Source of the DNA: a virus
Virus record (IMG/VR): IMGVR_UViG_3300032307_000983
Span: 1-31,392 of that record
Length of the DNA: 31,392 bases
Direction: 5' to 3' (one strand)
A program made the translations under genes and the position numbers. Positions 5,955 through 29,975 of the stretch are shown here, piece after piece (within the stretch, counting starts at the first letter, position 1; every line of letters begins with the position of its first letter). The notes under the pieces are model-generated. The model had not been told where the DNA came from. It did no database searches and saw only the letters and a list, made by a program, of their open reading frames with translations.

Positions 5955-6635
5955 TTAGATATAATTAATTTCTTTTGTTTCAGTATCATACTCAACAAAA
6001 ATTGGTTTGTGAGCGTGTTCATATCTGTCATTTAGAACTGACGAGTTAAGAAATTCAATTCCACCCATCGTCTTTTGTCCATAACCGTCGTGGATGTGAC
6101 CACAAACGTGAATTTTAGGTTTCACCTCCACAATCTTGCGATATAATTCTTCACAACCAACATGACCACCTATTGGAGCATAGTCCAAAATACCATATGC
6201 TGGTCCGTGTGTTATTAACACATCAACATCGTTTGGAATTTGTTCCCATTTTTCCGCCAACTCTTCTCCTCTTGAAAGGTTGAATGCCCAATTATGAAAT
6301 TCAGGTTGCCAAGGACTTCCATAAAATTTTATTCCATCAATGGTGACATCGTTGTCGAACAAATAGATTACACCTAAGTCTTTATATACTTGCGATATAT
6401 CGGTTTGTTGTTCGAATCCAAAATCGTGATTTCCTGCAATGAAAATTTTATACTTGAAATCAGTGTTTGAAAACCATTCCAAAAACTGTTCGATTTCATG
6501 TTTATATCCCAAACTTGTGCAATCACCTGCGTGTACGAGAATATCACCACTACCCAATATGTTTCCCATCCCCTTACTTGTAAGGTGTTTGTGTTTGTTG
6601 TGAGTGTCAGAGATGAATGTTATTTTCTTTTTCAT
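5955..6635 (-). CDS. Calcineurin-like metallophosphoesterase
   Basis: A 226-residue enzyme from the ATG at 6635 (MKKKITFISDTHNKH), whose start overlaps the stop of the upstream small gene as ATGA. The metal-site motifs appear in order: D-x-H in SDTHN, GD in HAGDCT, GNHD in IAGNHDFG, THGP, and GHIH in CGHIHDGYG. The pattern is closest to the MPPED/UPF0046-like branch of calcineurin-type phosphoesterases, which hydrolyse phosphodiesters using two metal ions. Adjacency to the cREC-like gene suggests nucleotide or RNA 2',3'-cyclic phosphate as substrate, but this is inference. Confidence 0.9.
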   Translation of the reverse strand: MKKKITFISDTHNKHKHLTSKGMGNILGSGDILVHAGDCTSLGYKHEIEQFLEWFSNTDFKYKIFIAGNHDFGFEQQTDISQVYKDLGVIYLFDNDVTIDGIKFYGSPWQPEFHNWAFNLSRGEELAEKWEQIPNDVDVLITHGPAYGILDYAPIGGHVGCEELYRKIVEVKPKIHVCGHIHDGYGQKTMGGIEFLNSSVLNDRYEHAHKPIFVEYDTETKEINYI

Positions 6636-6763
6636 AATGATATTACTAATTCCCATTTTAACCAACCAATAATTAGTTCTAAATCACCATTGAGTTTTTT
6701 GGTATGGGTTATTTTTACAAATGGAAAAATATAGATTTGTCCGTATACTTCAAATATTTTCAT
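6632..6763 (-). CDS. 43-residue small protein in phosphoesterase operon
   Basis: A small open frame, MKIFEVYGQIYIFPFVKITH to the end WELVISL. It starts one base after the stop of the 7265-6765 gene (TGATATG arrangement) and its TGA overlaps the ATG of the metallophosphoesterase (ATGA). Both junctions are typical of translationally coupled phage genes, and this is the main support. The product is hydrophobic and beta-like, and no function is known. Confidence 0.6.
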   Translation of the reverse strand: MKIFEVYGQIYIFPFVKITHTKKLNGDLELIIGWLKWELVISL

Positions 6764-20838: not shown

Positions 20839-21035
20839 AATTTATTCTGATTCTTCCATTCTTCGATAATGTAGTTTATGTTGTCGGACAAATGGTCTTG
20901 TTTTGATAGCCACTCCAAAAATTCCTCAATCCCCAAATCATAAGATTTTTCCATACATTTTTCAACTGAATTTCTATCGAAAAATCCTGTGTGAACAATG
21001 TATCTACTCAATATTTTTTCTAAACTCGGTTTCAT
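20835..21035 (-). CDS. Small helical hypothetical protein, 66 aa
   Basis: The start at 21035 (MKPSLEKILSRYIVHTGFFD) is chosen because it overlaps the RNA ligase stop as ATGA; a start at 21050 is also possible. Predicted all-helical (VEKCMEKSYDLGIEEFLEWL). No family is recognised. Confidence 0.65.
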   Translation of the reverse strand: MKPSLEKILSRYIVHTGFFDRNSVEKCMEKSYDLGIEEFLEWLSKQDHLSDNINYIIEEWKNQNKL

Positions 21036-22081
21036 GATTCTTTCTGCCAAAACGGTTTGCTATATTCGGGTTTTATTAATTTCCATATGAACGGAGACAC
21101 ATCTTTTCCATTCAACATACTGAATAATATTGACGGATGTTCATATATTTTTGCATTTTCTGCAAAATCTTTTACATCCAAATTTTTTGAGTTTAGTTCG
21201 TTGAATATTTCGGTGTAATCCTTTTCGATATTTTCATATCTAACAACTAAATCTCTCACGGTATTTTTTACCCATGAGTCAAATTCATCAGGAACTCTAT
21301 CCAATAAGGTGGTTAAATCTTTTTTGTCTTTCAAGTATTCCCATATATCAACAGTGGAAAACTCGGTGAGTAACCTATGAAGGTAAACGTAATCTTCCCC
21401 TTTTATTTTAACTCTAAGACCACTTCTGAACTTTATTACATAGCCCTCCCTTTCTTTGGAGATAGAAGATTTAAGGGTCTTATAATCTTGTATGTCGTCG
21501 TATTTCTTGATTACAGGTAAACCAGTTTCTTCATTTATTTTCAATAATGAATCATAATCAAGTTCTTTACCAGTGGCATTACTTATCATAGATAAGACAA
21601 CCAAAACTTCGTCCTCACCGTAGTTACAAACTATCCTATTTTCAGGGTAGATTATTTCAACCAAAGTGGTATATCCTTTTGGGATCGGTTCAACATTATA
21701 CTTCTCATTCAATATTTGTCTTCCTTTTATAGATTGGGTTGAGGTAAATGAACCCTTGCTAGCCAAAATCCATTTACCTTGATACCAAAATAAAATTCCC
21801 AAAGACCCATCGAGTTTTTCGTAAACTTCGAATTCTTCATTGGGTATTTCTTGGGGAGTATATTCCTCTAAGTTGAAAAACTTATCGAAAGATTTTGCAA
21901 TTACATTACCCTGATTATCCAAAACTAATCCCCTACAACTTTTGGTGATATTGTCCCACAATTTCTCGTATTGGGTCTTTCTGGTGTAGTTGTATATAGA
22001 CAAAGGAAGGGTAGGATGGTCATTTTTAACCACCAAACCCTTCTCTATGTAATCGTTCAATATGTTTAAGTTAAATTCCAT
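21032..22081 (-). CDS. rnlA: T4 Rnl1-type RNA ligase
   Basis: A 349-residue nucleotidyltransferase. Motif I is EKLDGSLG, with Lys89 as the AMP-accepting lysine. Upstream is the Rnl1-like SCRGLVLD...KSFDKFFNLEE, and downstream ASKGSFTSTQS (motif Ia region), LVEIIYPENRIVCNY (motif III-like), EGYVIKF (motif IV) and VKIKGEDYVYLHRL (motif V). It joins 5'-phosphate to 3'-hydroxyl RNA ends; in T4 this repairs tRNA cut by host anticodon nucleases. It is the first gene of the operon, behind a host-type promoter, as expected for an early repair enzyme. Confidence 0.93.
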   Translation of the reverse strand: MEFNLNILNDYIEKGLVVKNDHPTLPLSIYNYTRKTQYEKLWDNITKSCRGLVLDNQGNVIAKSFDKFFNLEEYTPQEIPNEEFEVYEKLDGSLGILFWYQGKWILASKGSFTSTQSIKGRQILNEKYNVEPIPKGYTTLVEIIYPENRIVCNYGEDEVLVVLSMISNATGKELDYDSLLKINEETGLPVIKKYDDIQDYKTLKSSISKEREGYVIKFRSGLRVKIKGEDYVYLHRLLTEFSTVDIWEYLKDKKDLTTLLDRVPDEFDSWVKNTVRDLVVRYENIEKDYTEIFNELNSKNLDVKDFAENAKIYEHPSILFSMLNGKDVSPFIWKLIKPEYSKPFWQKES

Positions 22082-28518: not shown

Positions 28519-28549
28519 CAAAGTTAATACAATTTTTATTTTATACAAA
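28519..28549 (-). promoter_or_regulatory. Bacteroidetes-type promoter for clpP
   Basis: On the minus strand TTTG (complement of 28546-28549) is followed 19 nt later by TAACTTTG (complement of 28519-28526). Both boxes match consensus exactly. The box decides the start codon of clpP. Confidence 0.85.
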
Positions 28550-29026
28550 AGATTTTTGGAAATCTGTCCAAACATTTAATAATACCACATCATCATACAT
28601 TATTGGTGGCTCGTATGCAGGTTTTTTCATTGGCATCTTTGCTTCATCAGGAGTTTTGTTGTCCTTATCTCGATTACACTTTGAACAACAAGTAACCAAG
28701 TTTGTCCATTCATTTGAACCACCTCTTGATTTGGGTATTACGTGGTCTAAGGTTAGATTCTTTTTCGACCCACAATAAACACACTCATATCCGTCCCTTT
28801 TATAAATGCGACTACGGTTGGGTTTATTTAATCTTGTCCTATGTCTGATATATTTTAATAGGCGTATGATAACGGGTCGTATAAACGTCTTATAACCTGT
28901 TACAATAGGATTCTCATCCGACCTTAACACTTCCGCCTTTCCTTTGGTAACCAATACAAAACCTCTCTGAACACTTGTCACGTTCAAGGGTGTGTAATCG
29001 GAATTCAAAACTAATACTGCACTCAT
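28541..29026 (-). CDS. HNH endonuclease (McrA-like)
   Basis: A 161-residue protein. The N-terminus VLNSDYTPLNVTSVQRGFVL is the lead-in of a common Bacteroidetes-type HNH protein. The HNH core CVYCGSKKNLTLDHVIPKSRGGSNEW...NLVTCCSKCNRDK has the two zinc CxxC pairs (Cys82/85 and 114/117), the catalytic His95 in LDHV and Asn109/118. It could nick or cut DNA, as a homing enzyme or in host-DNA degradation. It has its own promoter, back-to-back with the tRNA promoter. Confidence 0.92.
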   Translation of the reverse strand: MSAVLVLNSDYTPLNVTSVQRGFVLVTKGKAEVLRSDENPIVTGYKTFIRPVIIRLLKYIRHRTRLNKPNRSRIYKRDGYECVYCGSKKNLTLDHVIPKSRGGSNEWTNLVTCCSKCNRDKDNKTPDEAKMPMKKPAYEPPIMYDDVVLLNVWTDFQKSFV

Positions 29027-29150: not shown

Positions 29151-29224
29151 GGGCCTGTAGCTCACTCGGTTAGAGCGGCACACTCATAATGTGAAGGTAG
29201 TAGGTTCGATTCCTACCAGGCCCA
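29151..29224 (+). tRNA. tRNA with CAT anticodon (Met, or Ile2 reading AUA)
   Basis: Cloverleaf: acceptor GGGCCTG/CAGGCCC, D-stem GCTC/GAGC, anticodon loop CTCATAA with CAT, T-stem GTAGG/CCTAC with TTCGATT loop. The first anticodon-stem pair is mismatched (G-A). CCA is not encoded. The acceptor and D-arm sequence is the usual tRNA-Ile body, so C34 may be modified to lysidine and read AUA, a useful codon in an AT-rich genome. Confidence 0.9.
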
Positions 29225-29241
29225 CAGATATTTAATTATAC

Positions 29242-29316
29242 GCTCCTAAAGCATTGCTGGCGATGCGCATGACTTGTAATCATGATAACTTGGTTCGATT
29301 CCGAGTGGGAGCTCCA
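29242..29316 (+). tRNA. tRNA-Thr (TGT)
   Basis: Acceptor GCTCCTA/TGGGAGC (one T-G wobble), D-stem GCAT/ATGC, anticodon stem CATGA/TCATG with loop CTTGTAA giving TGT, T-stem CTTGG/CCGAG with TTCGATT loop, discriminator T and an encoded CCA at 29314-29316. Reads ACA threonine codons. Confidence 0.92.
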
Positions 29317-29320
29317 AAGT

Positions 29321-29390
29321 ACTTACCACGCTACCCATAAGAATAGCGTCCCAGGGTAAGTCATTTGAAGGGGACGGGTAGTTGCAAATG
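29321..29390 (+). ncRNA. Structured RNA candidate between tRNA-Thr and tRNA-Ser
   Basis: Two adjacent stem-loops not belonging to any tRNA. Hairpin 1: ACTTACC (29321-29327) pairs with GGTAAGT (29355-29361) and, inside, ACGCTA (29328-29333) with TAGCGT (29344-29349), with a 5-nt bulge CCCAG on one side and a 10-nt loop. Hairpin 2: CATTTG (29362-29367) with CAAATG (29385-29390). No reading frame. It is co-transcribed with the tRNAs and could be a stable RNA or a processing signal. Confidence 0.55.
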
Positions 29391-29403
29391 CTCATCCCTA
29401 TTT

Positions 29404-29488
29404 AGAGGAGTGGCCGAGTGGTTGATGGCGGCAGTCTTGAAAACTGTTTTACTGAAAGGTAACGGGGGTTCGAATCCGTCCTCCTCTG
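29404..29488 (+). tRNA. tRNA-Ser (TGA), class II
   Basis: Acceptor AGAGGAG/CTCCTCT, D-stem GCC/GGC, anticodon stem GCAGT/ACTGT with loop CTTGAAA giving TGA, long variable arm with TTAC/GTAA stem, T-loop TTCGAAT, discriminator G. The T-stem has a G-G mismatch in the middle. CCA is not encoded. Reads UCA serine codons. Confidence 0.9.
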
Positions 29489-29491
29489 CAT

Positions 29492-29606
29492 AATTGTAAC
29501 GATTCGTAAGAATGACGGAACGGACGCTAAGTATGAAATGGAAACTTTCGAAACACAATAAAAGTGTGGATGGGAAACAAACCGTACAGACGTTACAATT
29601 TTTTTT
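29492..29606 (+). ncRNA. Multi-branched structured RNA candidate ending the tRNA transcript
   Basis: A 10-bp perfect helix, AATTGTAACG (29492-29501) with CGTTACAATT (29591-29600), encloses 89 nt and is followed by a T run (29599-29606), so it both closes an RNA domain and can terminate transcription. Inside are ATTC-GTAA-GAAT (29502-29513), a hairpin with a GNRA-type loop stacked on the closing helix, ACGG/CCGT (29515-29518 with 29582-29585), GAAA/TTTC (29535-29538 with 29546-29549) and ACAC/GTGT (29553-29556 with 29564-29567). No open frame of note. The class is not recognised. Confidence 0.6.
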
Positions 29607-29621
29607 CACAAATAAAATCTA

Positions 29622-29975
29622 ATGGCACATCCAAACTTACATGCGAAATCATCTGCCAAAAAATTTGGTGGAAAACCTGAAGACTATATTCACCTCCACG
29701 AATGGTTGGATGAGACCAAATCTTGGTTTGGTGATTCTTTACACAGAATGTTTAGACACCATAGTGAAGGAATATTTGAAATGGAAAAAAGGTTTGGAAC
29801 CGAATTCAAAAACTCAGATGGAAAAACTGTTTACACCCGTTATGTTGGAGAACAACATGTAAAAGAGGACTGTAATAACTATATTCCATCAGCAAAAGAG
29901 TGGGTTAACAATATGATGTCCAATCAAAGACCACAGTGGATGTTGAAGACCGTTAAATTAGAATTCGAAGACTGA
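29622..29975 (+). CDS. Conserved His-rich protein (DUF6915-like)
   Basis: A 117-residue protein with evenly placed His/Trp motifs: AHPNLHAKSSAKKFGG, DYIHLHEWLDETKSWFGD, LHRMFRHHSEGIFEMEKRFG and VGEQHVKEDCNNYIPSAKEW. I recall the same string of motifs (AHP.LHA.SS..KFGG...HxWxDxTK...HR..HH..GI...E...EQH..ED) as the family I believe is DUF6915, found in bacteria and phages. The conserved His, Asp and Glu residues suggest a metal-dependent helical enzyme. It starts 15 nt after the T run of the structured RNA; no separate promoter is seen. Confidence 0.8.
   Translation: MAHPNLHAKSSAKKFGGKPEDYIHLHEWLDETKSWFGDSLHRMFRHHSEGIFEMEKRFGTEFKNSDGKTVYTRYVGEQHVKEDCNNYIPSAKEWVNNMMSNQRPQWMLKTVKLEFED

Follow-up and report, generated by a model that had tools for sequence, protein, structure and literature searches.

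What is encoded in the gap between the end of a phage tRNA array and the next protein gene? In the window, by which we mean the whole stretch of viral DNA analysed (31,392 nucleotides; IMG/VR record IMGVR_UViG_3300032307_000983), an element of about 109 nt begins 2 nt past the end of a tRNA-Ser gene, and a DUF6915 gene begins about 20 nt downstream of it (Table 1). A sequence-only reading had proposed here a multi-helix structured RNA that closes the tRNA cluster, carries a built-in terminator and might be an analogue of the stable RNAs C and D of phage T4. Judging by the comparison of its relatives, the element belongs to a family of structured noncoding RNAs that is conserved across dozens of related phages. 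It is probably the gene of a small structured noncoding RNA that travels as a passenger of tRNA arrays, is released by tRNA processing and acts in trans, and our doubt lies mostly with the function.

Table 1. Features of the window at and around the RNA element.
Feature	Position	Strand	Basis or remark
tRNA-Met(CAU), first gene of the array	29151..29225	+	ARAGORN, Rfam
tRNA-Thr(UGU)	29242..29316	+	ARAGORN, Rfam
tRNA-Ser(UGA), immediate upstream neighbour, no encoded CCA	29404..29489	+	ARAGORN, Rfam
RNA element, P1 to P1', about 109 nt	29492..29600	+	Covariance model R1 and 38 distinct relatives
P1 5' strand, AATTGTAACG	29492..29501	+	Rewritten in relatives with matching 3' strands
P2 hairpin, ATTC-GTAA-GAAT	29502..29513	+	GNRA loop in most members
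P3 5' strand, ACGG	29515..29518	+	100% of cells paired
Core strand, AACGGACGCTAAGTATGAAATGGAAAC	29519..29545	+	Conserved
P4 hairpin, ACAC-AATAAAA-GTGT	29553..29567	+	ACAC 29553-29556 pairs with GTGT 29564-29567; length and sequence variable
P3 3' strand, CCGT	29582..29585	+	
Junction ACAGA between P3' and P1'	29586..29590	+	Invariant, 38/38
P1 3' strand, CGTTACAATT	29591..29600	+	
Run of eight T	29599..29606	+	Clade-specific

Comparative evidence for the structure

The window sequence alone was no more than suggestive, since its RNA had the same folding energy as shuffled sequences (z -0.27) and, when the stretch was dinucleotide-shuffled 2000 times, a 10-bp perfect inverted repeat came up in 27 cases. 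Relatives were collected starting from the downstream DUF6915 gene, which led to 80 phage loci, 12 of them with the RNA by blastn, and the set was expanded iteratively with gapped core patterns in IMG/VR and two covariance models, R1 (built from 16 sequences) and R2. The final set, with members from IMG/VR only, comprised 52 phage loci, all with E < 1e-6, and 38 distinct sequences of 94-114 nt; the latter number is the honest sample size because several contigs carry identical copies. R1 gave the window 123.4 bits over 29493-29599, the window being part of its training set. Outside that training set, L173/L045, in which P1 is wholly different, were matched by R1 with E 2e-16, and 14 further loci with E values from 1e-29 to 3e-8.

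In alignment A9, which leans towards structure because it was fitted to the covariance model, 95.0% of pair cells formed standard pairs compared with 77.6% after shuffling, both-side changes occurred at 19 of 23 pairs (145 cells against a shuffled mean of 39), and the covariation score of 0.478 compared with 0.176 for shuffles and at most 0.093 when the structure was slid by 1-3 columns. The structure-free MAFFT alignment A3 agreed with A9 (9 pairs versus 3.6, with 0 of 500 shuffles as high), and RNAalifold returned P1, P2 and P3 without a supplied structure. We accepted the structure on this comparative covariation, where single-sequence energy did not suffice. On this comparison the RNA folds as a three-way junction of P1, P2 and P3 in which the P3 arm holds an invariant loop core.

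The helices drift under compensation. P1 takes at least six unrelated sequences; its forms include TGTAACG/CGTTACA, TGTAATG/CATTACA, GTGTTG/CAACAC, ACACATCG/CGATGTGT, AATACACTG/CAGTGTATT and AACACACTA/TAGTGTGTT, and TACACTG and CACACTA are among the rewritten 5' strands of relatives. In P2, all cells are paired and 4 of 4 pairs show both-side changes; a longer P2 loop, CUUGAGAAA, is common to L218 and L224. P3 occurs as ACGG/CCGT, ACTG/CAGT, GCGG/CCGC and ACAG/CTGT, and 3 of the 4 pairs of P4 changed on both sides. One possible extra pair in the core (columns 64-116, G-C to A-T) is not claimed, as the change tracks clade lines.

Several parts of the sequence-only reading were borne out by these comparisons: the multi-helix RNA itself, with abundant compensatory changes at homologous loci, the 10-bp perfect closing stem around 89 nt, which is P1, and the hairpin of GNRA type, which is P2 with its GTAA loop. 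The stem had also been called unlikely to be chance; some of the shuffles above contained one too, and it was the relatives that settled its reality. The run of eight T noted after the stem is real, though its first two T are paired within P1 and six lie beyond it.

About 20 loop positions were without change in all 38 sequences, an invariance that is partly a matter of ascertainment because the pattern scans require an intact core. The unchanged positions comprise the unpaired ACGCUA-N-G-N-AUGAA after P3, in which the N positions vary freely, AA before P3', and ACAGA before P1'; the motif ACRGA follows each of the two P3 strands. Most scans demanded ACGCTA, ATG and ACAGA, and a scan with TGTAACGA...CAGACGTTACA, in which ACGCTA and ATG were not demanded, returned members with both intact. 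Fixed loops amid rewritten helices are the pattern expected of a putative binding site or active site, and neither a spacer nor a coding frame accounts for them. We gave up the idea of a short conserved reading frame (ATGAAATGGAAA...) since neither frame nor stops are kept: stops per frame differ, and none is open in all members.

Beyond the set, no model match came from several large phages belonging to these groups, whose records may be fragments. By blastn, isolated phages returned only fragments of 24-29 nt, and the covariance models found no credible match in huge phages, Lak phages, Cellulophaga phi4:1, Bacteroides DAC19 or T4; a Lak-C1 match (E 0.01) was rejected for having no nearby tRNA and several broken P1 and P2 pairs. 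In 84,980 cellular genomes, 38 exact-pattern matches were judged by the covariance model to be chance. The source genome of L127 is a Bacteroidales MAG, and 396 genomes of its phylum gave no match under strict filters with no positive control. Thus no homologue was found in cellular genomes, at limited sensitivity.

Placement in tRNA arrays and a proposed mode of action

In 42 of the 52 copies, 0-6 nt separate the start of the element from a preceding tRNA or from a 3' half that is still recognisably tRNA-like, and the upstream tRNA may be of Ser, Leu, Glu, Ala or Arg type, some having no assigned identity. Ten of the 52 loci have no adjacent upstream tRNA. L245 and L272 lack a tRNA within 490 nt upstream and have one 5 nt downstream, and in L224, L293 and L310 the element lies outside tRNA arrays, at a locus without tRNA, which shows that its presence is not bound to tRNAs. 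Downstream neighbours differ as well, comprising tRNA-Arg, Ala, Thr, Asp and Leu, tmRNA and unrelated genes. The description of an RNA closing the tRNA cluster holds only locally, as a tRNA follows 2-14 nt downstream in 19 of the 52 loci.

From this position, the element would be co-transcribed with the tRNAs and then cut out by ordinary tRNA processing, as with other RNAs embedded in tRNA transcripts. Its 5' end would come from 3'-end cleavage of the upstream tRNA, and its 3' end from RNase P cleavage of a downstream tRNA or from a local 3' end. The product would be a stable RNA some 95-115 nt long. The core suggests a binding or active site and an RNA that acts in trans, most likely bound during infection to a protein or a complex that serves translation or the upkeep of tRNAs, the link to translation being drawn from the neighbours only. 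That the element sits so close to tRNA 3' ends could also reflect a role on the tRNA itself instead of shared processing.

T4 offers a precedent for this position, and the element most likely has a function like that of T4 RNAs C and D with an unrelated sequence. The annotated lengths are 139 and 119 nt for rnaC and rnaD and 94-114 nt for the element; rnaD starts 1 nt after T4 tRNA-Arg, as the element lies directly 3' of a tRNA, whereas rnaC has a T-arm-like 3' end that the element lacks. The suggested likeness to these RNAs thus stands for the place in the array but not for homology: models R1 and R2 found no match anywhere in the T4 record, including rnaC and rnaD.

The class had not been recognised from the sequence, and Rfam 15 has no family above its gathering threshold over the element, with only tRNA, tmRNA and GOLLD elsewhere. 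GOLLD and ROOL are phage-borne noncoding RNAs often near tRNA islands with no function assigned, and GOLLD is often longer than 800 nt (PMC12286853). Both are far larger than the element of about 110 nt and differ from it in fold; the element model had no match inside GOLLD stretches, and GOLLD (RF02032) was absent over the element. GOLLD occurs in the same arrays in L245 (1420-1826), L236 (117-531) and L264 (1-351). tmRNA shares the arrays too, but is a separate gene of about 375-390 nt with no sequence relation seen; it lies downstream of the element in L164 (10313-10690, tag peptide GEEKSSFTFEDALAFVGAEYAVAA), L160 (2331-2708), L225, L231 and L254. Being stable RNAs, these other array members, tmRNA and GOLLD, count in support of the proposed explanation.

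Alternative explanations

The main rival is a new self-cleaving ribozyme with a fixed cut near its own helices, which would separate the upstream tRNA or set the ends of the RNA. We consider it unlikely, though the compact junction fold and the invariant unpaired core amid free helices are the conservation style of small ribozymes, and the element abuts tRNA 3' ends. Two of its motifs superficially resemble a hatchet sequence, and we treat this as a lead only. The hatchet is likewise a small junction-rich RNA from metagenomes. It self-cleaves at the base of P1 in Mg2+ (PMC4604424), and its features are those listed in two papers (PMC4604424, PMC7357161). RF02678 (gathering threshold 51 bits) did not match the RNA in any of 12 records, the window and 11 related ones, at E<=10, nor was there a match in a permissive cmscan of 29300-29650, and no other Rfam ribozyme matched. 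This verdict concerns membership of the class and leaves room for a distant common descent. Furthermore, a cut that matures the tRNA would not be fixed, since the distance to the tRNA ranges over 0-6 nt and an adjacent upstream tRNA is missing in 10 loci, and the usual tRNA enzymes would be enough.

A passive role in the tRNA operon, as a structured trailer or spacer or as a transcription terminator, is very unlikely. It would account for the T run after P1 in the window's clade and for the place of the element there as the last one before a protein gene. The T run is limited to that clade, however, while many relatives lack it and have a tRNA 2-14 nt later instead, and a passive spacer is not expected to keep some 20 invariant loop bases across rewritten helices. 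No terminator-like site, taken as a short hairpin rich in GC with a T tract behind it, was found, and the built-in terminator of the sequence-only reading is not a trait of the family.

Different tRNAs precede the element in different phages, and the tandem RNA/tRNA-like unit of L218 contains a second, core-less copy, as a mobile RNA element inserting at tRNA 3' ends would predict. Against this reading, which we hold to be highly improbable, all 21 records in which a match was confident, the longest of 326 kb, had a single one, no associated gene was identified, and nothing but the tRNA end recurs consistently as a target sequence. A cis-acting riboswitch or leader of the downstream gene, suggested by the DUF6915 gene close behind the element in the window, can practically be dismissed because the type of downstream neighbour is not constant among the loci.

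A more tentative possibility, which we regard as rather doubtful, is that the family is a new class of natural ribozyme or of RNA cofactor from the tRNA arrays of large phages that acts on tRNAs or translation during infection. Phage-array noncoding RNAs such as T4 C and D, GOLLD and ROOL have long been without an established function, and the element adds a further, unrelated and compact class that covaries strongly and whose invariant core is sharply defined. It is small enough to be tested directly for cleavage in vitro, probed, used in pull-downs and studied structurally, and the covariance model can be used to scan metagenomes and metatranscriptomes. If the RNA were catalytic or bound the translation machinery, it could help to explain the purpose of array-borne RNAs.

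Other RNAs and genes at these loci

A second structured candidate (z -2.84, no Rfam match) lies at 29317-29403 of the window, between tRNA-Thr and tRNA-Ser, and consists of a TACTTACC...GGGTAAGT hairpin and a GGGGACGGGTAG-TTGCAAAT-GCTCATCCCT hairpin. It recurs in L004, L005, L006 and L160, and its stems are changed in L011/L013. A third RNA, the conserved hairpin ACCCTATGACGAAGGRACTCGATTGGGAACYGGAAGTGAGGGTACTATACACATAGGGT, is about 70 nt long and in most cases has a T tract behind it; it intervenes 5' of the element in L002, L007, L008, L009 and L167 and stands 5' of tRNA-Glu in L163.

tRNA-like units lie beside the element in L218 (4592-4816 and 4818-5050) and L164 (10005-10163), with an acceptor, D-arm-like and T-arm parts and a long unusual middle. 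L218 has two tandem RNA/tRNA-like units, and in the first of the two RNA copies P1 and P2 are retained around a wholly different core. We discarded the reading of a permuted tRNA in L218, as each flanking tRNA-like unit has its own 5' and 3' halves.

In L224 (4358-4810) and L310 (6700-6985), the element sits within long noncoding stretches without tRNAs, which share TGAGNNCTCAGCNAG right after the element and GAGGGTGCTAA further on. Here the element may form one domain within a longer RNA; the folding energy of the L224 stretch gave no support for a larger RNA (z 0.62).

The window also encodes a phage ClpP (27821-28519), an HNH endonuclease adjoining the tRNA array (28541-29026) and a protein like T4 RNA ligase 1 (21032-22081). 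RNA ligase 1 is a tRNA-repair enzyme in T4, and the ligase-like gene fits a phage that guards its tRNAs, while proving nothing about the element RNA. Finally, L310 has at 6487-6705 a short frame with four TGA that would give a plausible protein if TGA were read as Trp (WPFWPSNPETIW...), and the standard code leaves the frames on either side open.
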